DNA of 34,609 bases from Gammaproteobacteria bacterium (GTDB taxonomy: Bacteria > Pseudomonadota > Gammaproteobacteria > Arenicellales > JAOTWM01), in the NCBI GenBank assembly GCA_029862885.1, contig JAOTWM010000005.1, positions 1 through 34,609 of the forward strand, read 5' to 3'. The notes below the pieces were generated by a model that saw only the letters and a program-made list of their open reading frames with translations, had not been told where the DNA came from and did no database searches. Below are positions 10,795-29,763 of this stretch, one piece after another; position 1 is the stretch's first letter, and every line of letters starts with the position of its first letter. The position numbers and the translations under genes were made by a program.

Positions 10795-10815
10795 AATGTA
10801 ACTGCGAGACAGGTG

Positions 10816-11283
10816 ATGCAAAAGGCGCTACTAATCAATCCGGAGAAGTGTACGAGCTGTTTGCAATGCGAGCTGGCTTGTTCGTTTGAGCACGAGGGCG
10901 TGTTCAATCCCGCAAAATCAAGAATCAAAGTTTTTGAATTTGAACACGGCCGCCGCGCAATCCCTTATACCTGCACACAGTGCGACGAGGCGTGGTGTTT
11001 GCATGCGTGCCCAGTGGAGGCCATTACGATCAGTCCGAACACCGGCGCGAAAGAGGTAAACGACAATACCTGTGTTGGTTGCAAGGTTTGTACGATCGCC
11101 TGTCCCTTCGGGACCGTGAACTACAACGCGGATTCCGGAAAAGTTGCGAAATGCGATTTATGCGGCGGTGATCCGCAGTGCGCGGAAGCCTGTCCGACCG
11201 GCGCCATCACTTACGTGGATGCGAACTGGACGGGTTACGAACGCATGCTTGAATCCGCAGTGCGGGCTCATCCGGCAGCTTAG
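10816..11283 (+). CDS. aorA: 4Fe-4S dicluster-type electron transfer protein of the AOR complex (AorA-like)
   Basis: Four cysteine clusters: CTSCLQCELAC, CTQCDEAWCLHACP, CVGCKVCTIACP, CDLCGGDPQCAEACP; directly upstream of AOR. Confidence 0.9.
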   Translation: MQKALLINPEKCTSCLQCELACSFEHEGVFNPAKSRIKVFEFEHGRRAIPYTCTQCDEAWCLHACPVEAITISPNTGAKEVNDNTCVGCKVCTIACPFGTVNYNADSGKVAKCDLCGGDPQCAEACPTGAITYVDANWTGYERMLESAVRAHPAA

Positions 11284-11314
11284 AATTGAATGAAGAATCA
11301 GCGGAGTACTTAAA

Positions 11315-13138
11315 ATGAGTTGGCAACGTAAAATTCTCCGGGTCGATCTTTCCAAGGGTAGTGCCGAGATTGAACCGCTCAATATGGAGTGGGCACAACA
11401 ATTTCTCGGTGAACGCGGCCTCGCTACAAAGTATTTGATGGAAAGTATGGATCCGAAAACCGATGCGATGGATCCCGGCAATATCCTGATTTTCGCCACC
11501 GGACCACTGACCGGTACGATGTCGTCCACCAGCGGTCGATACGCGGTGGTGACCAAAGGGCCGCTGACCAATGCGATCGCTTGTTCTAACTCGGGCGGCA
11601 AATTCGGTGCCGAATTGAAGTTTGCGGGATACGACCTGCTCATTGTTCAAGGGAGGTCGCCGCAGCCGGTCTATCTGCATATCGACAATGATAACGTTGA
11701 AATCCTGCCGGCCGATGAATTGTGGGGCACGACAGTGTGGCACACCGAGGAGTGGCTCAAATCACGCCATCAAAATCCGTTATTGAAAGTGGCGTCGATC
11801 GGTGTGGCAGGGGAAAACGGCGTCCGTTTTGCGTGTATTGTCAACGATCTGCATCGTGCAGCCGGACGTTCCGGCGTTGGTGCGGTTATGGGTTCGAAAA
11901 ACCTCAAAGCCGTAGCCGTGCACGGTTCCGTCGGCGTCCGCGTCGATGATCCGCAGCGTTTTATGCAGGCCGTGAAGGACACCAAAGCGCTGCTATGGGA
12001 TAACGCGGGGCGACGGGAATTGACCGAACTCGGCACCAACGCAATGATTGACGCGATGCAGGAGTTCGGTGGCTTACCGACGCGTAATTTTCAGGAAGTA
12101 CAATTCGACGGTTACGACAAGATCGACCCTAATGCGATGACCACCCCCAACGAGCACGGCCATACCAATTTAATTACCAACAAAGCGTGCTTCGGGTGCA
12201 CCATCGCGTGTGGGCGGATCGCCCACATCGATCAAGAGCATTTTACGATTGTCAACCGCAAAGAATACTGGCACGCATCCGGAGGCTTGGAATACGAAAC
12301 CGCGTACGCATTTGGTCCGGTGGTGGGAGTTGATGATATCGATGCATTGACATTTGCAGGGTATCTAATGAATGAGCACGGAATGGACCCGATATCATTC
12401 GGCGTGACATTAGCCGCGGCAATGGAACTCTATGAAATGGGGGTTATTTCCGATAAGGATACCGATGGTGTGGCGCTTAATTTCGGTAATGCCGAAGCGT
12501 TGACGGTGATGGCCGAAAAGACCGGCAAATTCGAAGGATTCGGTCAAATTCTTGGTCTGGGCTCGAAACGTCTATGCGAGAAATATGGCCACCCGGAATT
12601 ATTCATGGGCGTTAAAGGCCAGGAATTCGCGGGCTACGATTCGCGTGCGTTGCAAGGAATGGGCTTGGGTTACGCTACCAGCAACCGGGGAGCGTGCCAC
12701 TTAAAGCACGATACATTCGCGGAGGACATGGAAGACCAAACCGGCAAGGGTAAGGCGGTGCCGTGCAAGGAATCCCAGGATCGCACCGCGGTGGTGGATT
12801 CGACGGGTTTGTGCCTGTTCACTACAGCGGCGTGGGGTGTCGAAGAATTTCAGCAGCAAATCGATGCGGCCTGTGAGGGCGATTGGAGCGTAGAGCGACT
12901 AGCGGCTACGGGCGAACGAATTTGGAACCTGGAGCGACAGTTTAATCTTGCGGCGGGGCTTTCGAAGGATGACGATACGCTGCCCAAGCGCTTACTGGAG
13001 GTACCCGCACCATCGGGCACCGCCAAAGGTAAAGTCAATCAGCTCGATATGATGCTCCCGGAATATTACGAGGCGCGCGGCTGGACGGCGGATGGGGTAC
13101 CTACCAAGGAGACCCTGCAAAGATTGGATCTTAGTTGA
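11315..13138 (+). CDS. aorB: Aldehyde:ferredoxin oxidoreductase (tungstopterin enzyme, AorB-like)
   Basis: MSWQRKILRVDLSKGSAEIEPL, GERGLATKYL, GPLTGTMSSTSGRYAVVTKGPLTNAIACSNSGGKFGAELKFAGYD, CFGCTIACGR, DSTGLCLF: family hallmarks throughout. Confidence 0.97.
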   Translation: MSWQRKILRVDLSKGSAEIEPLNMEWAQQFLGERGLATKYLMESMDPKTDAMDPGNILIFATGPLTGTMSSTSGRYAVVTKGPLTNAIACSNSGGKFGAELKFAGYDLLIVQGRSPQPVYLHIDNDNVEILPADELWGTTVWHTEEWLKSRHQNPLLKVASIGVAGENGVRFACIVNDLHRAAGRSGVGAVMGSKNLKAVAVHGSVGVRVDDPQRFMQAVKDTKALLWDNAGRRELTELGTNAMIDAMQEFGGLPTRNFQEVQFDGYDKIDPNAMTTPNEHGHTNLITNKACFGCTIACGRIAHIDQEHFTIVNRKEYWHASGGLEYETAYAFGPVVGVDDIDALTFAGYLMNEHGMDPISFGVTLAAAMELYEMGVISDKDTDGVALNFGNAEALTVMAEKTGKFEGFGQILGLGSKRLCEKYGHPELFMGVKGQEFAGYDSRALQGMGLGYATSNRGACHLKHDTFAEDMEDQTGKGKAVPCKESQDRTAVVDSTGLCLFTTAAWGVEEFQQQIDAACEGDWSVERLAATGERIWNLERQFNLAAGLSKDDDTLPKRLLEVPAPSGTAKGKVNQLDMMLPEYYEARGWTADGVPTKETLQRLDLS

Positions 13139-13160
13139 GATAAGATTAACCAGTTATTGA

Positions 13161-14447
13161 TTGGACAAAAGTATGAACCACATCATTATCGGTGCGGGGC
13201 CCGCAGGAGTGATTGCGGCGGAGACGCTCCGCAGGCTCGATTCCGATGACAGTATCATCGTGATCGGCGATGAGGACGAAACGCCGTATTCGCGCATGGC
13301 CTTACCGTATTTGCTCGCTGAAAACATCGGCGAAGATGGAACTCATTTGCGCCACGGCGCCGATCATTATGCGGCTCACGGTATTCGAGTCCTAAAAGGC
13401 CGAGTTACTGCGGTTGATACCGGTGCTAAAAACGTGACGCTGGAGGGTGGCGATGCGTTATCGTACGACAAGTTGCTCATCGCTACCGGATCCCATGCGT
13501 CACGGCCACCGATCGCAGGCATGGATCTTCCTGGTATCGAAAATTGCTGGACCCTGGCCGATGCGCGCCGAATCGCCGAGCGCGCTAAGCCGGGCGCCAA
13601 AGTCGTATTGATGGGAGCCGGGTTTATCGGCTGTATTGTGCTCGAGGCGTTGGCAGCACGTAACGTAGAATTGACCGTAATCGAGATGGCCGATCGCATG
13701 CTCGCACGCATGATGGACGATGCTGGCGCGGAAATGATTAGACGTTGGTGCGAACAGAAAGGTGTTCGGGTGCTTATCGGAACCCGTGTCGAAAGCATCG
13801 ACAATGGTGAGGTTGGTCTGCGCATCAATATCGGCGGGGGCGAGCCGGTCGCAGCCGATCTTGTGGTATGTGCAACCGGCGTTGCGCCAAACGTCGGGTT
13901 CTTAGAAGGTAGCGGCATCAATACCGACCTCGGTGTCATCGTGGATGATCATCTGCAATCCAATGTTGCCGACGTCTATGCCGCCGGAGATGTGGCGCAG
14001 GGCCCGGATTTTTCCACTGGCCAATCCGAGATTCATGCGATTCAACCCACTGCTAGCGAGCATGCGCGTATCGCCGCTGCCAATATGGCCGGGCGGTCGA
14101 ATCGATTTGACGGCAGTTTGTCAATGAACGTGCTCAATACGCTGGGGTTGATCACAAGTTCGTTTGGTTTGTGGGACGGTATCGAAAACGGAGAGCGTGC
14201 GACCGTATTAGACAAGAAGCATTTTAAATACCTGCGGCTAGAGTTTGACGGCGATATCTTGGTGGGCGCGTTGGCGATCGGACTAACCCAGCACGTTGGC
14301 GTTTTGCGCGGTCTAATCCAAACCCGGGTCAAGCTTGGACACTGGAAGCGAGAATTGCTACGCGATCCGCATCAAGCCATGAGCGCTTATCTCGGCCGTA
14401 CTCAAGGGGATACGTCGCCGCTAGTCGGCGCCACCCGCGCGGCATGA
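13161..14447 (+). CDS. aorC: FAD/NAD(P)-dependent oxidoreductase (AorC-like subunit)
   Basis: GAGPAGVIAAETLRRLD, ATGSHASRPPI, GAGFIGCIVLEAL, VYAAGDVAQGPD; positioned in the AOR operon. Confidence 0.9.
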   Translation: MDKSMNHIIIGAGPAGVIAAETLRRLDSDDSIIVIGDEDETPYSRMALPYLLAENIGEDGTHLRHGADHYAAHGIRVLKGRVTAVDTGAKNVTLEGGDALSYDKLLIATGSHASRPPIAGMDLPGIENCWTLADARRIAERAKPGAKVVLMGAGFIGCIVLEALAARNVELTVIEMADRMLARMMDDAGAEMIRRWCEQKGVRVLIGTRVESIDNGEVGLRINIGGGEPVAADLVVCATGVAPNVGFLEGSGINTDLGVIVDDHLQSNVADVYAAGDVAQGPDFSTGQSEIHAIQPTASEHARIAAANMAGRSNRFDGSLSMNVLNTLGLITSSFGLWDGIENGERATVLDKKHFKYLRLEFDGDILVGALAIGLTQHVGVLRGLIQTRVKLGHWKRELLRDPHQAMSAYLGRTQGDTSPLVGATRAA

Positions 14448-14747: not shown

Positions 14748-16115
14748 CTAACCGGTTGCCACCGGTGGTAATCCGGCTAGCGCCATCGCCAATTCCTGTT
14801 GATCGTAGGCCCGATCATTCAGATTACCGGCAAAGTAGTCCGAGTAGGCCTGCATATCAAAATGGCCGTGCCCACACAGATTAAACAGGATCGTTTCTGA
14901 TTTTCCTTCTTGTTTGCAGCGCTCTGCCTCATCGATAGCGGCTTTGACGGCATGGGTCGCTTCCGGTGCCGGCACGATACTTTCGGTGCGGCTGAATAAG
15001 ACCCCGGCTTCAAAACATTCGGTTTGGAGATAGGCGCGCGATTCAATCAATCCGAGTTCTTGCGCGTGGCTTACAATCGGCGCCATGCCGTGATAACGCA
15101 ACCCACCGGCGTGGAATCCCGATGGCACGAATGCCGATCCCAGGGTGTGCATCTTTGTCAGTGGCGTCTGCTTGGCAGTGTCGCCGAAATCGTAGGCGTA
15201 TTTGCCCTTCGTTAGTGTCGGGCACGCTGCCGGTTCCACCGCGATAACGCGAACCGATTTGCCGCCACGTAATTGATTTCCTATAAACGGCAGCGCCAGT
15301 CCCGAAAAATTGCTGCCACCACCGGTGCAGCCGATTACGATATCCGGGTAATCTTCCGCAAGGCCGAGTTGTTCCTCGGCTTCCTGGCCGATAACCGTTT
15401 GGTGCATGAGCACATGATTGAGTACGCTGCCCAACGCGTAGTTCGTGTCTTCACGTTGTGCGGCTTGCTCCACGGCTTCGCTGATCGCGATGCCTAGGCT
15501 GCCGGTACTTTCCGGGTTCTGTTCGAGAATGGCACGGCCGGCGGCGGTCTCTTCGCTAGGACTCGCCGTGCAGGTCGCACCATAGACTTCCATCATCGCT
15601 TTGCGATACGGTTTTTGTTGGAAGCTGACTTTCACCATAAAAACTTTAACTTCAAGACCGAACAGTGTACCGGCGTAGGCCAGCGACGACCCCCACTGAC
15701 CAGCGCCGGTTTCAGTCGTCAGTCGGTCGATTCCGGCCTCTTTGTTATAAAACGCTTGGGCAACGGCTGTGTTGGGTTTGTGGCTGCCCGTGGGGCTCAC
15801 GCCCTCGTACTTATAGTAAATGCGCGCCGGTGTCTGCAGTGCTTCTTCGAGGCGCCGGGCCCGATACAAAGGCGTTGGCCGCCACAGGCGGTAGACGTCG
15901 CGCACCGGTCGCGGAATATCGATGTATCGTTCAGTGCTGACTTCCTGGCCGATTAACTCCATCGGGAATAACGGTGCTAGATCGTCCGGTCCTATCGGGT
16001 TGAGTGTCCCCGGGTGTAAGACCGGGGGCAATGGCTCTGGCAGATCGGCCTGAATGTTGTACCACGCCGTGGGGATATTCGACTCATCCAGCAGATACTT
16101 AACGGTATCGGTCAT
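14748..16115 (-). CDS. TrpB2-type tryptophan synthase beta-like PLP-dependent enzyme
   Basis: [81 protein letters not shown] at 16115 ([12 protein letters not shown]). Confidence 0.95.
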
Positions 16116-16351
16116 CTCGCTATCTGGCTCCAATGTGGGCGAAAATGGACATTGTCGAACATGCACATGCGGATATCAATCGATACTGAAAGCTAGATGT
16201 TTACCGTTAGTGCCATGGTGCACCCCTGGTCGGCGCTGACACTGCCTTACCAGCTTGAATGATGGGATTGCCCGGAGCCTTGCGTTGGGATATGTTCGGC
16301 CGGGATTGCTGCGTCCGCAATATCGCCTCAAACGGGTACCGGGAGAATTAA

Positions 16352-22624: not shown

Positions 22625-22915
22625 GGAGGTCCTCCGTTCTATCAAATATGCGTACCGGAGTTTTTGGTCCTGTCCGACGACGCACGCGCCCGGAACGCCT
22701 TGACTATCCTGGAACGTGCTCCGGCGGCTCATACTAAACGATGAATGCGCCTCATTAAAAGTCTGGGGACCCAGTCCAGGCATGGATTTGATACACAGCG
22801 AGTGCGCCGTAGTTCATATCAATTGACCATTAAACTCGTATCAGCCTATATATAGTCGAATTATGTCGAGTGACTGAGCCACTGACGCCATAGGAAACTC
22901 ACCGGTAGATTGATT

Positions 22916-23947
22916 ATGACGGAAACGGTGGAAACCCTCCCGGCAGCCTGGTATACCGACCCGCATGTATATGCCCGCGAGCAGCAGCTCATATTCGCCC
23001 GCAATTGGTCGGTCTTCGCGCGCGCGGATCAAGTTGCGAATCCCGGTTGTTTCGTGGCGGGAAGGGTGGCTGGGTGGCCGGTTTTTGTGGTGCGTGACTG
23101 CAACGGTGTGTTGCGTGGGTTCCACAATTTTTGCCGGCATCGCGCGGGCCCTGTCATCAGCGGATCGTTCGGCCACTGCGATCTATTGCGTTGCCCCTAC
23201 CACGGTTGGACCTACGGCCTGGATGGCGCTCTTCAAAAAACCCCCGGTTTTGTGCGTGATGCGGCGGTGAACCCGTATGCTATGAGTCTGCTTCCAGTTG
23301 CGGTGCAAATTTGGAACAGTATCGTCTTTGTGTGTTTGGAAGATCGCGGTACCGATCTTGAGCAATGGCTCGGTGAAATTGTTCCGCTCGCGCAGGCGTA
23401 TCCACAGGTCGACGACATGGTTTTTCATAGCGAAGTCGTGAGTGAAGGTGAAGTGAATTGGAAATCCTATAGTGATAATTCCGCCGAGGGATACCACCTA
23501 GGTTCAGTTCACCCAGCGCTGACGCGAGCGTTGCTGCCGGAGCGTACCAAGATCAGTACATACGAAAACGGCCGGTTTATTGCCTTTAACGTGGTTTACA
23601 AAGAAACGGAATATCGCGCAATGAGCAACGGTTTGTGGGTCTACAAGTTTCCAGGGTTGTTACTGCATTTTTCTGATTATGGTTTCAACTTGGAGCGCGT
23701 CACGCCTCTGGGCGCAGAGCGCACACGCATGCAACGCTGGTTTTGGTTCCCCGCTACAGCGACCGGGGCGGAATGTGATGACGTAGTGGCGGCGTCCAAT
23801 CAAGTAATGGGCGAGGACCTCGCGATATGCACTCGTGTGCAGGAGAATCTCGCAGCCGGGACATACCAAACCGGACAAATGTCTCCAAGCCGTGAAGGGG
23901 GCACGATTTTCTTCCAGCATTGCGTGCGCGAAGCGCTGGAATCCTAG
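22916..23947 (+). CDS. Rieske-type aromatic ring-hydroxylating oxygenase, alpha subunit
   Basis: Rieske motif CRHRAGPVISGSFGHCDLLRCPYHGW; mononuclear iron motif DNSAEGYHLGSVHP. Confidence 0.95.
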   Translation: MTETVETLPAAWYTDPHVYAREQQLIFARNWSVFARADQVANPGCFVAGRVAGWPVFVVRDCNGVLRGFHNFCRHRAGPVISGSFGHCDLLRCPYHGWTYGLDGALQKTPGFVRDAAVNPYAMSLLPVAVQIWNSIVFVCLEDRGTDLEQWLGEIVPLAQAYPQVDDMVFHSEVVSEGEVNWKSYSDNSAEGYHLGSVHPALTRALLPERTKISTYENGRFIAFNVVYKETEYRAMSNGLWVYKFPGLLLHFSDYGFNLERVTPLGAERTRMQRWFWFPATATGAECDDVVAASNQVMGEDLAICTRVQENLAAGTYQTGQMSPSREGGTIFFQHCVREALES

Positions 23948-24915
23948 TCCGTTAGGTGCTGCAGCTCGTGACGAAGATACTGCGCAATGGCCAACATACC
24001 GCCACCATGCGACTTATCCAGTCCCGCGCGCGATTCGGCGTCGCTGTTGAAATTAGTATTAACGTTGATGTCGTAGGTGTAAGTAGTGCCGTCACGGTCG
24101 AGAATGAGTTCGATGCCGGCGATATCAATGTTGTACTTGGCTAACACTTGAAGATACGCATCGTCATCGGGCGGACGAAAATCGGTGAGGATTTCGAATT
24201 GCTCGCGAACGGCGGGTCTAACCAGTCGACCAGCTTCGTCGATGGCGCAGGCATCTGCCGGACACAATTCAAAACCGGTGGAGGTGTCGACGCGAACCGA
24301 ATACAGCAGTTTCCCACCGATATACTCGTTACGCACGATATAGCCGTCGGCGGATTCTATGTATTGTTGTATAAGCACCGCCCCATCGGGTCCGGCGTCG
24401 TAATCGCCACTTTTACTGATGTGTTGTAATGCTCGTGCGGAATCGATTTTTTGAACGCCCAGTCCTTTGCCGCCCCGATTAGGTTTCAGCACAACCGGAA
24501 ACGTCATATCGTCTGCGGCCGCAGCGACGGCCTCGCGGCCCACCGCAACCCGAGTCAACGGCACACGCACACCGGCGGCCATCAGAGCGCCGTATTGACG
24601 CGCTTTGCTGAGTTCAAGATCGAGGCCGCGCAGACCATTTATGACCCGCCGATTATGGCTTTCCAGCCATGCCAGTAGCGCTGCCGCATAGCTAGCCGCA
24701 TCGTCGTGGCCTCGGTTGTGCGCCGAGGCGCTCATACGGCTGTAAAACACGCCGCGCGGCGGGGTGGCACCGAAGTCCACGCAACCGGCGGAAACGTCCC
24801 AGAATTCAAATGGTACGGCGACGCTCTGCAGGGCCACGCGTAGCGGTCCGATCCACTGGGGATTTTCATGAAGAATATAGATCTTACTCAATTTTAACGA
24901 TTTCCTGCGACGCAT
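23944..24915 (-). CDS. ATP-grasp domain protein (RimK/LysX-like ligase superfamily)
   Basis: FPVVLKPNRGGKGLGVQKI, VLIQQYIESADGYIVRNEYIGGKLLYSVRV, YTYDINVNTNFNSDAE metal-binding segment. Confidence 0.85.
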   Translation of the reverse strand: MRRRKSLKLSKIYILHENPQWIGPLRVALQSVAVPFEFWDVSAGCVDFGATPPRGVFYSRMSASAHNRGHDDAASYAAALLAWLESHNRRVINGLRGLDLELSKARQYGALMAAGVRVPLTRVAVGREAVAAAADDMTFPVVLKPNRGGKGLGVQKIDSARALQHISKSGDYDAGPDGAVLIQQYIESADGYIVRNEYIGGKLLYSVRVDTSTGFELCPADACAIDEAGRLVRPAVREQFEILTDFRPPDDDAYLQVLAKYNIDIAGIELILDRDGTTYTYDINVNTNFNSDAESRAGLDKSHGGGMLAIAQYLRHELQHLTD

Positions 24916-25042: not shown

Positions 25043-25207
25043 ATGGCAGAGTGTCCGGTATGTGGTACGGAGGTGCCTCTTGGCGCAGGCACGGTGCGCG
25101 GTGAATTAATCGAGTGCGGTGACTGTGGGAGCGAATTGGAAGTGTTGACGACCGACCCGATGACTCTTGGTGAGGCGCCGGAAGCTGAGGAGGATTGGGG
25201 CGAATGA
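25043..25207 (+). CDS. lysW: LysW-type amino-group carrier protein (AmCP), 54 aa
   Basis: [54 protein letters not shown]: zinc-ribbon CxxC x2, acidic tail and invariant C-terminal EDWGE. Confidence 0.97.
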
Positions 25208-26043
25208 GAGTGGGTTTTCTGCACTCACTCATTCGCAAAGAAGAGAAGCTCCTGATCGACGCATTCGAAACGATAAATGATGTCGAGTTGGTATTGTTGG
25301 ACGATCGCCAATTGGTGTTTGATCTGCATAGTCGGATCGACGTCGACGTCGTGTTGGAACGCTGTATTAATCACTCGCGCGCGGTACACGGGCTGCGGTT
25401 TCTGGAAAGTGTCGGCATTCGGTGCGTAAATAATTCCGAGGTCGCTCGAATTTGCGGCGATAAGTTGCTGACTGCGGTCGCACTGAAAGAACATGGAATA
25501 CCTCAACCCGATGTTCGGATTGCATTTACGGAAAAGTCTGCGCTACGCGCGATTGAAGAGATCGGCTACCCAGTGGTGCTAAAGCCAGCAGTGGGTTCCT
25601 GGGGTCGATTGTTGTCAAAAGTTAATGACCGCGATGCGGCGGAATCAATTCTTGAGCACAAAGCCATCCTCGGCAGTTACCACCATTCGATTTTTTTTAT
25701 TCAGAAATATATGGAAAAGCGTGGCAGGGACATTCGCAGTTTCGTAGTCGGAGACGAATGTATCGCGGCGATTTATCGCACGTCCGAGCATTGGATCACC
25801 AATACTGCACGGGGTGCCGTGGCCAGTAATTGCCCGCTCGATACCGAAATCTGCGAGCTATCGCTCGGCGCTGCGCAGGCGGTGGGTGGGGGGGTCCTTG
25901 CGGTCGATCTTCTTGAGGCAGAAGGTCGATTACTCGTCAATGAAGTGAACTATACGATGGAGTTTCGCAACAGCATCGACACTACCGGGGTCAATATTCC
26001 TCAGAAAGTAGCGGACTATGTAGCGGCGGTCGCGTCGCAGTGA
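25204..26043 (+). CDS. lysX: LysX/ArgX-type ATP-grasp ligase attaching an amino acid to LysW
   Basis: [85 protein letters not shown] overlap with lysW. Confidence 0.95.
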
Positions 26044-27065
26044 TCGGCGTTTCGATAGTTGGGGGTTCTGGGTACTCCGGCGGGGAATTGTTACGGTTGC
26101 TGCACCGTCACCCGGCAGCAACCGTGCAGCAAGTAACATCCGAGCGGTTTGCGGGCAAACCGGTGAGCCGTACACACCCGAACCTACGCAAGGTCGTTGA
26201 TCTCAAATATTGCACAATTGGTGATCTTGGCCACTGTGACGTATTATTTTTGTGCCTTCCGCATGGTGAGGCGATGCGTCGCATCGGCGAATTCGCGAAC
26301 TTGGCCGAGAGTATTATCGACTTAAGCGGTGATTTTCGGTTGAGCGATGGTGAGGCCTATAAAAAGTGGTATGGCCGCGAGCATGTGTGTCCAGAATGGT
26401 TGCCGCAATTTGTATACGGCATTCCTGAGATTAGCCGCGACGAACTAATCACGGCCCGCTACGTCGCCGGCGCTGGATGTAATGCGACGGCGGCTATATT
26501 AGGCCTTCGGCCTTTGTACCGCAGTGGCCTCGTCGAACAAGTTGTGATCGAGGTCAAAGCCGGCTCCAGCGAGGCTGGGAATGCCGCAAGCGACGCTAGC
26601 CATCATCCGGAACGCAGCGGTGCGGTGCGATCCTATAAACCGTCTGGGCATCGCCACATAGCCGAAATCAAACAGGCGCTTGCAGCAGATCGCGTGTATT
26701 TCTCCGCCACGTCCATTGAGATGGTGCGTGGTATCTTGGCGACCTGCCATGTTTTTATGGGCAAGGATTTGTCCGAAAAAGAAATATGGGGGTGGTACCG
26801 GGACTGTTATAAACACGAGCCATTCATCCGTATTGTCAAAGATCGGTCTGGGATACATCGCTATCCAGAGCCGAAATTGTTGAGCGGCAGTAATTACTGC
26901 GATATCGGTTTCGAACGCGATACCGATAGTAATCGGGTCATCGTAATTAGTGCGATCGATAACTTGATGAAAGGTGCTGCGGGTCAGGCAATTCAGGCAT
27001 TCAATATAATGCATAAAATTACAGAAACCGCCGGGCTCGAGTTTCCCGGGTTGCACCCGATTTAG
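26040..27065 (+). CDS. lysY: LysY/ArgC-type [LysW]-aminoadipyl/glutamyl phosphate reductase
   Basis: [69 protein letters not shown] overlap with lysX. Confidence 0.94.
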
Positions 27066-27106: not shown

Positions 27107-27745
27107 ATGTGCCGTTTGCTTTGCGTCAGGTCGGCCGGCCCGCCATTTGCATTGTCGGACCACCTTGTTGCGCTCGCCCGCATCGCAGAAACTAGTAAGG
27201 AGTACCAAGGCCACGGCTGGGGATGCGCCTGGATCGAGGCAGGGAAATGGCACACTTATCACAATATTCGCCCTATTTGGGAGGATGATCTGTCACGATT
27301 TGGCGACGCGACGGTATTGCTGGCCCACGCCCGAAGCGCGTTCCGCGACGAAGGAATCTGTGTCGAGAACAACATGCCGTTTTTCGATGGCGAGTACGTG
27401 TTTATTTTTAACGGCGAGCTGCGTGGAGTGCGTATTCGTGAACAGGGGCGAATCGGTGCGGAAAAGATATTCAACTACGTCAAACGTTTCGATCACGGAG
27501 ACATGTTGTTGGGGTTGAATAAAGCCGTCGACGTGATTGCTAAACGGTCGCGCTATGTAAGAGCGTTAAATTTCATCATGTCAAGTTCCGAATCCATCTA
27601 CGTTGCGACTCAGTTCGGCGAAGACCCTGATTACTTTCAGCTTTATCGCTGTAGCGAGCCGGGGTTCGATATCGTGTGCTCACAACAATATACGGCATGT
27701 AGTGCGTGGCGGCCGATCGATAACGGTACTGTGCTGCGCTTATGA
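27107..27745 (+). CDS. Class II glutamine amidotransferase-fold Ntn hydrolase (glutaminase domain only)
   Basis: N-terminal MCRLL (Cys2 nucleophile), VLLAHARSAF, FIFNGELRG oxyanion-type NG motif; no attached synthase domain. Confidence 0.85.
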   Translation: MCRLLCVRSAGPPFALSDHLVALARIAETSKEYQGHGWGCAWIEAGKWHTYHNIRPIWEDDLSRFGDATVLLAHARSAFRDEGICVENNMPFFDGEYVFIFNGELRGVRIREQGRIGAEKIFNYVKRFDHGDMLLGLNKAVDVIAKRSRYVRALNFIMSSSESIYVATQFGEDPDYFQLYRCSEPGFDIVCSQQYTACSAWRPIDNGTVLRL

Positions 27746-27769: not shown

Positions 27770-28570
27770 GTGTATCTGATTAAGGTTGGCGGTGGAACCG
27801 CAATCAATTTAGAGGGCATTGCGGCCGACTTAGCCCTGTTGAATCTTCCGTCCATCGTTGTTCTTGGCGCCAATGCTATCCGAGATGAAGTGGCCGAGAA
27901 GTTGTCGGTGGCGACCGAAGTAGTGACGTCGGTGTCCGGATATAGCAGCGTGTTAACGGATCGGTCGATGATGGACGCCATCATGATGACCTATGCGGGA
28001 CTACGCAGTCAGAGATTCGTCGAGTTGTGCCAACGCCAGGGCGTAAACGCACTGAGCTTATCGGGATTGGATGGTGCCGTCGTGAGGGGCCGCCAGAACC
28101 GCGGAATACGAGTGCGCCAAGCGGACAAAGTACTGATAAAGAGAGACTTGTCCGGGAAGCCGACGCAGGTAAACGGGTCGCTACTACAGTCACTGTTGGC
28201 GCAAGGTTATACGATCGTGCTTACCATCCCGGTATTGGGTGAGGACGGGGTGGCTCTGAATTCCGAAAATGACGATATTGTGGCGGCTCTACACGCGACC
28301 TTACGCGCACGACGAATTATCCAACTGATCGAGGCCCCGGGGTTTCTTGATGACCCCAGTGACCCCGAGACGGTAATACCAACGCTCGGTCGGGTCGATC
28401 TTATTGACCGCGAACAGCAGTCCAGTGGCCGCATTAAGCGGAAATTAATGGCATTGCGAAAGTTGTTCGACGGTGATCCGGTCGAAGTCATCCTTGCGGA
28501 TGGCCGGGTTGCGCAGCCACTCCAACAAGCTATGCAGGGCCACGGCACTTACATTAGGGTTGATCGGTAG
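27770..28570 (+). CDS. lysZ: LysZ-type [LysW]-aminoadipate/glutamate kinase (amino acid kinase family)
   Basis: LIKVGGGTAINLEGIAADL, LTDRSMMDAIMMTYAGLRSQRFVELCQRQGVNALSLSGLDGAVVRGRQN, GRIKRKLMALRKL, ILADGRVAQPLQQAMQGHGTYI. Confidence 0.93.
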   Translation: MYLIKVGGGTAINLEGIAADLALLNLPSIVVLGANAIRDEVAEKLSVATEVVTSVSGYSSVLTDRSMMDAIMMTYAGLRSQRFVELCQRQGVNALSLSGLDGAVVRGRQNRGIRVRQADKVLIKRDLSGKPTQVNGSLLQSLLAQGYTIVLTIPVLGEDGVALNSENDDIVAALHATLRARRIIQLIEAPGFLDDPSDPETVIPTLGRVDLIDREQQSSGRIKRKLMALRKLFDGDPVEVILADGRVAQPLQQAMQGHGTYIRVDR

Positions 28571-28608: not shown

Positions 28609-29763
28609 ATGAACTATCAGGAGATAAATGAACTTTACGAATTGAATATTTACCCGCGCCGCAACATCACCTTGGTAAGAGGCAGTGGTGCTCTGTTGTG
28701 GGATGATCTAGGCAACGAATATATCGACTGCAGTGCTGGAATCGGCGTGGCAAACGTGGGACATGCAAACTCCGATGTCGCCGCGGCCATCAGTCACCAA
28801 GCACAAACTTTACTGACTTGTGCTAACGTCTTTTTTAACGATGTTCGCGCCCAACTCGTCGAAAAGCTCGTTCAAATGGCTCCGCCCGGGCTGGATCGCG
28901 TTTTCCTTTGTAATTCGGGGGCCGAAAGTATCGAAGCGGCTATAAAATTTGCGCGGCTTGCGGGTGGCGGTCGCAGCCGATTCGTGTGTGCGACACGAGG
29001 GTTTCACGGGCGCACAATGGGGGCATTAAGTGCGACTTTCAAGAAGGAATACCGCGAACCGTTTCAGCCTGTGGTGCCGGGCTTTGAATTTGTTCCGTTT
29101 AACGATTTCGAAAAACTCAGCAACGCCGTTAATGAAAATACTGCGGCAATCATTCTAGAGCCGGTGCAAGGCGAGGGCGGGGTTCGGATACCGGGGCCGG
29201 ACTATTTTCAGAACGTACAAAATCTTTGTAAGGAACGTCGGGTCCTTCTCATTATCGACGAGATTCAAACCGGATTTTGCCGAACCGGTAAGATGTTTGC
29301 CTGTGAGCATTATGGGTTGGTACCCGATTTATTATGTCTGGCAAAAGCCATTGCGGGAGGCGTGCCGATGGGCGCAGTGTTGTGCGGTGGGCGCATTGAT
29401 GTCAAGCCGGGTCAACACGGCAGCACCTTTGGCGGTAATCCGTTGGCCTGTAGTGCCGCGTTGGCCGCAATTCATTTTATGGAAGTCAAGAATCTTGCAA
29501 TTCGCGCGGCCGATTTAGGAGACTATTTTATCGAGCGATTTGCGATACCGTGGCCGCCAATCGTTCGCAGTGTGCGCCAAATCGGATTGATGATCGGTAT
29601 CGAGCTTAAAGAGCGTGCCCAACCGTATTTGGTGCGCCTATTGGAACTCGGAATCTTGGCGTTGCCGGCCGGGCCGACAGTAATTCGCTTGCTTCCGCCA
29701 TTGGTGATCAACGAGGCGCAGCTTGATCGCGTGGTGCAGGCTTTGCGAGAGGCGTTACGTTAA
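28609..29763 (+). CDS. lysJ: LysJ/ArgD-type class III aminotransferase
   Basis: SGAESIEAAIKFAR, RGFHGRTMGALSAT, EPVQGEGGV, LLIIDEIQTGFCRTGKMFACEHYG, LAKAIAGGVPMGAVL, GSTFGGNPLACSAALA. Confidence 0.95.
   Translation: MNYQEINELYELNIYPRRNITLVRGSGALLWDDLGNEYIDCSAGIGVANVGHANSDVAAAISHQAQTLLTCANVFFNDVRAQLVEKLVQMAPPGLDRVFLCNSGAESIEAAIKFARLAGGGRSRFVCATRGFHGRTMGALSATFKKEYREPFQPVVPGFEFVPFNDFEKLSNAVNENTAAIILEPVQGEGGVRIPGPDYFQNVQNLCKERRVLLIIDEIQTGFCRTGKMFACEHYGLVPDLLCLAKAIAGGVPMGAVLCGGRIDVKPGQHGSTFGGNPLACSAALAAIHFMEVKNLAIRAADLGDYFIERFAIPWPPIVRSVRQIGLMIGIELKERAQPYLVRLLELGILALPAGPTVIRLLPPLVINEAQLDRVVQALREALR

Follow-up and report, generated by a model that had tools for sequence, protein, structure and literature searches.

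The known LysW hydrolase, LysK ([LysW]-lysine/[LysW]-ornithine hydrolase), is an M20 metallopeptidase that releases the amino acid from the C-terminal Glu of LysW, a residue whose α-carboxylate is free and whose α-amine lies in a peptide bond. EgtC, the γ-glutamyl-hercynylcysteine sulfoxide hydrolase, is a stand-alone class II glutaminase-fold enzyme that cuts a γ-glutamyl amide without a synthase partner. YafJ-type proteins (1te5, 3mdn) consist of a single glutaminase-fold domain with an MC[ER] start and an NG oxyanion motif, and yeast DUG3, whose sequence lay outside our comparison, is grouped with them as a single-domain glutaminase fold. In structures of GlmS, an Asp binds the free α-amino group of glutamine, an Arg binds its α-carboxylate, and an Asn-Gly pair forms the oxyanion hole. 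Dop, the Pup deamidase/depupylase, which possesses a glutamine-synthetase-like fold, deamidates the C-terminal Gln of a carrier and also hydrolyzes the γ-glutamyl isopeptide on that carrier. A LysWXZYJ-Hcs locus was reported in the genome paper of Caldithrix abyssi, whose authors pointed to possible non-orthologous displacements in the synthesis of lysine, arginine, and serine (PMC5317091). A search of an open-access library found no paper treating LysW together with an amidotransferase of the type described below.

The locus considered here lies in a 34,609-nucleotide stretch from a gammaproteobacterium (contig JAOTWM010000005.1, assembly GCA_029862885.1), the whole of which is termed the window. 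Pfam and NCBIfam assignments revealed a tight, co-directional operon of the order LysW-LysX-LysY-GAT-LysZ-LysJ:

25043..25207, + strand: LysW amino-group carrier protein, 54 aa, ATG start; TIGR01206 (lysW) 59.3 bits, cut-off 53.2; Zn_ribbon_LysW
25204..26043, + strand: LysX ligase; TIGR02144 331 bits, cut-off 275.6
26040..27065, + strand: LysY/ArgC-type reductase; TIGR01850 385 bits
27107..27745, + strand: GAT, class II glutaminase-fold protein, 212 aa; proposed hydrolase for product release from LysW and for LysW-Gln deamidation
27770..28570, + strand: LysZ, [LysW]-aminoadipate kinase-like, GTG start; NF010659 191 bits, under the cut-off of 223
28609..29763, + strand: LysJ class III aminotransferase; TIGR00707 434 bits, cut-off 410; NF042418 (LysJ) 470 bits, under the cut-off of 700

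The window LysW terminates in EAEEDWGE, and its stop codon overlaps the ATG of LysX (ATGA at 25204), which we take to be the ligase that couples the amino acid and the C-terminal Glu of LysW and which contains a GSWGR motif.

Other genes in the window were recorded as well. A Rieske oxygenase α-subunit-like gene (22910-23947, +) and a second RimK-like ATP-grasp ligase (23944-24915, −), the latter divergent from the LysW operon, lie upstream; the relatives were seen to carry neither of them close to the operon. By eye, consecutive ORFs at 10813-14447 (+) resemble a ferredoxin, a tungsten aldehyde oxidoreductase, and an NAD(P)H-dependent flavoprotein, and an ORF at 14748-16166 (−) resembles the β-subunit of tryptophan synthase, possibly of the TrpB2 type.

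GAT begins with MCRLLCVRS, displays the motifs LLAHARSAF (residues 71-79), ENNMPFFDG (87-95), and FNGELRG (101-107), and is a single domain with nothing beyond the glutaminase fold and no synthase domain. Its sequence is divergent, scoring below threshold for every curated Pfam and NCBIfam family searched, including GATase_6 (19.7 bits, cut-off 27) and EgtC (TIGR03442, 41.2 bits, cut-off 218.65). An AlphaFold model computed from an alignment of 30 family members reached a pLDDT of 90.2 and a pTM of 0.89, with the lowest-confidence blocks (residues 81-90, mean 57, and 111-120, mean 75) located near the expected active site. When compared with the PDB by Foldseek, the model retrieved EgtC structures first (4zfj, 4zfk, and 4zfl; for 4zfl, query-normalized TM 0.83, 17% identity, E 2.7e-12), followed by the predicted amidotransferase 1te5, PurF, 3mdn, and GlmS. 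The predicted fold places GAT among the class II glutaminase-fold (αββα Ntn) hydrolases; Pfam and NCBIfam searches gave no M20 zinc-peptidase match to the protein. A phmmer search of the PDB with the single protein returned nothing useful, while a profile search did give matches. We regard GAT as a real gene because its reading frame is kept in 39 relatives across several phyla and the model is confident. An earlier note, made from the sequence alone, had pointed to the MCRLL start, the AHARSAF and FNGELRG motifs, the lack of a synthase domain, and a solo class II glutaminase fold, and had implied neighbors corresponding to LysW, LysX, LysY/ArgC, LysZ, and LysJ; all of these held.

A scan limited to one genome per species identified the 39 relatives (47-66% identity) in Gammaproteobacteria, Gemmatimonadota, Calditrichota, Ignavibacteriota, Bacteroidota, Myxococcota, Thermodesulfobacteriota, SAR324, and Acidobacteriota. 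All 39 have LysW-operon genes as neighbors and, on every contig that extends far enough, fall between LysY and LysZ; the same LysY-GAT-LysZ placement was observed in 26 of 26 GAT-containing genomes picked by LysX alone, without GAT as bait. Clustering of flanking ORFs, which had a size limit above that of LysW and hence could not include it, showed broad sharing only for LysX, LysY, GAT, LysZ, and LysJ; the remaining clusters were lineage-specific or comprised opposite-strand ORFs overlying the operon. The ergothioneine genes egtB and egtD were not among the conserved neighbors, which are LysW, X, Y, Z, and J. A further LysW survey in the class of the Gemmatimonadota genome G142 yielded seven more GAT operons and one unresolved case (G507). 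The isoelectric points of LysW (4.05) and of the GAT family (median 8.3) agree with a pairing of the two, but this is weak support and at most suggestive, as the window GAT has a value of only 6.3.

In the unresolved case (locus L122, G507:C2:255500-264000), LysW-LysX-LysY is followed by no GAT, LysZ, or LysJ within the next 6 kb, and the remainder of the operon may be located elsewhere. An apparent GAT operon without LysX in genome G021 was rejected as a masked or chimeric stretch in which the last part of LysY can still be recognized immediately ahead of GAT.

With the profile TIGR01902, LysK is absent from the window, and no match above cut-off was found in the window genome or in any of 30 GAT-positive genomes. 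LysX (TIGR02144) was also searched without selection for GAT in 100 genomes from the class of G022, 150 from Gemmatimonadota, and 198 from the phylum of G021. Among the 28 new LysX-positive genomes, 26 encode GAT without an above-cut-off LysK; one (G142) lacks GAT and carries LysK (330 bits) in the order LysW-X-Y-Z-J-LysK; and the last (G296) contains neither of the two, although its contig stops just past LysJ. A LysW survey around G296 returned only that genome. The overall pattern is DISPLACEMENT of LysK: GAT and above-cut-off LysK never occurred in the same genome among those tested. LysW systems with M20 hydrolases were found, in part by tblastn, on plasmids of Deinococcus (where the hydrolase is annotated as [LysW]-lysine hydrolase), Pseudalkalibacillus, Staphylococcus, and several Streptomyces, and no GAT was found on plasmids; in the fetched stretch of two Streptomyces plasmid records, no M20 gene was seen. 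Fourteen control genomes were searched for LysX and LysK, not for GAT. Four of them (Thermus, Deinobacterium, Haloferax, and Sulfolobus) contain LysX above cut-off, and all four are among the LysK matches, which likewise number 4 of 14. A Fisher test of 26 GAT-positive, M20-negative systems vs eight GAT-negative, M20-positive systems and one with neither gave p 3.8e-7, a value that is optimistic owing to the shared ancestry of the genomes. On this comparative evidence, and without an enzyme assay, GAT probably replaces LysK in the LysW pathway.

Several plasmid clusters display features of their own. Two from Streptomyces carry a transposase gene between LysW and argC (L132, 7195-8415; L135, 7195-8412) and adjoin peptide synthetase genes; these are the records without a visible M20 gene. 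The clusters from Pseudalkalibacillus (L129), Staphylococcus epidermidis (L130), and Streptomyces camelliae (L134) closely parallel one another, with a DegT aminotransferase, transketolase halves, and an M20 protein of unusual length (~600 aa), the first part of which in L129 resembles LysZ, suggesting a kinase-M20 fusion.

Residues invariant in 73 GAT members comprise H74, R76, S77, A78, N88-N89-M90-P91-F92, F101, N102, G103, L105, G107, V108, G114, G117, A118, R127, N155, Y176, F177, and W201, and C2-R3 is invariant in the 70 members with a readable N-terminus. From the alignment with YafJ and GlmS, we infer that Cys2 is likely the nucleophile, Arg76 the α-carboxylate ligand, and Asn102-Gly103 the oxyanion hole. 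The family also differs at position 117, which is Gly in 73/73 GAT members and Asp (TD[ST]E or similar) in 17/17 comparison proteins, a multiply aligned set made up of GlmS, YafJ, EgtC-like proteins, and further stand-alone members of class II. An hhalign comparison of GAT with YafJ (probability 97.3) gave a register identical to that of the multiple alignment; the comparison with E. coli GlmS alone was insignificant, and the GlmS register was taken from the multiple alignment. Relative to YafJ-type proteins, TDSE has become IGAE, HNG has become FNG, and NTHPF has become NNMPF. Retention of the Arg together with loss of the Asp is predicted by a LysW-linked substrate and not by a free small γ-glutamyl substrate, although the function ascribed to this Asp derives from GlmS structures, without a modeled complex. 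Phylogenetically, the members group together with a support of 100/100, and a long stem of 1.8-2.1 changes per site leads to this single clade, which is separate from YafJ-type, GlmS, and EgtC-like proteins in trees that did not include DUG3. Assignment to the YafJ or EgtC family was rejected on profile scores and trees.

A further line of evidence comes from the carrier itself. LysW is readable in 67 GAT operons; it ends in Glu in 59 and is encoded with the ending EDWGQ in eight (L007, L038, L090, L096, L100, L101, L111, and L114), the codon before the stop being CAA or CAG. In the two Gln genomes checked (L007 and L038), LysX is full length and retains GSWGR. Since LysX activates a carboxylate, the γ-carboxamide of LysW-Gln should in all likelihood not serve as its substrate, an inference rather than a measurement; an amidase is therefore expected in these operons, and the one present is GAT. 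An EDWGQ-ended LysW would probably be useless unless deamidated. On the GAT tree, with rows lacking a readable LysW counted as Glu, the Gln label requires five changes, at least four of them forced by well-supported branches, which indicates that Glu and Gln interchange in a GAT background. In systems without GAT, Glu is the last residue of all 11 LysW tails. The enrichment (8/67 vs 0/11) is not significant (Fisher p 0.59), and the argument rests on the existence and multiple origins of EDWGQ, not on enrichment, as the sample without GAT is too small.

Taken together, the comparative evidence makes it likely that GAT is both a hydrolase for LysW-bound products and a deamidase of LysW-Gln, with substrate, hydrolysis, and deamidation all inferred and no biochemistry available. 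What is shown is the basis for this proposal: the predicted fold, the conserved catalytic residues, the operon linkage, the mutual exclusion with LysK, the loss of the Asp, and the EDWGQ-ended LysW. In the proposed mechanism, removal of the initiator Met would expose the N-terminal Cys as the nucleophile, which would attack the γ-carboxamide carbon of the LysW C-terminal Glu. The finished amino acid, bound to that Glu via its own α-amino group, would then depart, and water would hydrolyze the resulting LysW-γ-thioester to regenerate LysW with a free γ-carboxylate. Arg76 would grip the free α-carboxylate of the LysW C-terminal Glu, while Gly117-Ala118, in place of the usual Asp-Ser/Thr, would leave room for the LysW backbone at the site that a free ammonium would otherwise occupy. 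Deamidation of LysW-Gln would proceed by the same chemistry.

The rival accounts each explain part of these observations. If GAT served only in maturation, it would deamidate LysW-Gln to LysW-Glu and an unidentified hydrolase would free the product; EDWGQ tails are indeed seen only in GAT-type operons, and with Dop, an enzyme that deamidates a C-terminal Gln is already known. We consider this unlikely, since most GAT operons encode a Glu-ended LysW that offers nothing to deamidate and still keep GAT, and GAT-positive genomes lack LysK above cut-off. It also remains improbable that a diverged M20 enzyme (DapE, ArgE, or a relative) frees the product while GAT cleaves a small γ-glutamyl compound. 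In favor of this view, most GAT-positive genomes contain sub-threshold M20 matches, with best scores per genome of 20-96 bits and matches of 94-104 bits in G233, G170, G245, and G256. However, the best match in the window genome (57.8 bits) is DapE-like by eye and lies beside an ArgD-like aminotransferase gene, one GAT-positive genome (G030) has no M20 match at all, and another (G023) has one of only 20 bits; a small-molecule role would moreover leave the strict LysY-GAT-LysZ placement and the lost Asp unexplained.

Ammonia supply, in which GAT would feed NH3 from free glutamine to an operon enzyme, is compatible with the class II glutaminase fold and the intact nucleophile and oxyanion residues, but it is the least credible of these alternatives. 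GAT has no synthase domain, no ammonia-using enzyme was identified in the window operon by Pfam or NCBIfam, a PLP aminotransferase provides the amino group, and the Asp that would hold the α-amino group of free glutamine is Gly throughout the family. The earlier note had proposed a γ-glutamyl isopeptide hydrolase acting on LysW and judged this a better fit than ammonia supply. The preference is supported, and so is the hydrolase role by comparative evidence, with the activity itself only inferred. Placement among housekeeping YafJ-type proteins or an operon enzyme using NH3 would have refuted it, and neither was observed; the phylogeny it had called for gave the separate clade described above. 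The missing LysK, the Asp-to-Gly change, and the EDWGQ tails go beyond that note. A bolder reading, doubtful but still possible, is that GAT acts as an acyl transferase and not merely as a hydrolase. In place of water, the amine of an incoming aminoadipate or glutamate would capture the LysW-γ-glutamyl thioester on Cys2, and the finished amino acid would be freed while the carrier is reloaded, saving ATP in the manner of acetyl recycling by ArgJ; LysW-Gln could likewise be loaded without ATP.

For either activity, the identity of the pathway product is uncertain, and searches for ArgJ, LysA, and homocitrate synthase gave a mixed picture. LysA occurs in 27 of 31 GAT-carrying genomes and ArgJ in 14 of 31, the window genome having both, so it is not evident that lysine or arginine comes from the operon alone. 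Among PDB sequences, the window LysX matches 3vpd (305 bits), 1uc8 (273), and ArgX-type 3vpb (170), and it is closer to Thermus-type LysX than to ArgX. Two GAT operons contain a homocitrate synthase-like gene between LysW and LysX (L028, 6800-7963; L031, 6846-8009) that scores 347 bits against TIGR02146, under the cut-off of 414, and similar coding starts after the LysW stop in L090 and L096. By appearance, such operons resemble aminoadipate-lysine operons of the kind reported for Caldithrix abyssi (PMC5317091). In the window organism, the operon could conceivably provide an additional route to lysine, or yield ornithine, another diamino acid, or something else.

Compared with the described systems, the proposed enzyme would share the niche of LysK, amino acid release from the LysW C-terminal Glu, but differs in being an N-terminal Cys Ntn hydrolase rather than a zinc M20 enzyme, with unrelated fold and chemistry. 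EgtC is the closest structure, yet EgtC-like proteins keep the Asp, the two fall in separate clades, and the EgtC substrate is a small molecule. Dop matches the two proposed activities but acts on larger substrates and shares no homology. The GAT family is likely, on comparative evidence, a new LysW-dedicated branch of the Ntn hydrolases, one that has taken over from the M20 metallo-hydrolase LysK. If this is correct, GAT would supply the final step that the LysW pathway lacks in at least seven phyla, among them those with Ignavibacteria-type operons, which contain a homocitrate synthase-like gene and have the look of lysine operons. It would also represent an Ntn hydrolase that recognizes the C-terminus of a protein, and a single residue (Asp or Gly) would tell enzymes for free γ-glutamyl substrates from those for protein-linked ones. 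LysW would then join Pup as a second carrier whose gene can encode a C-terminal Gln.
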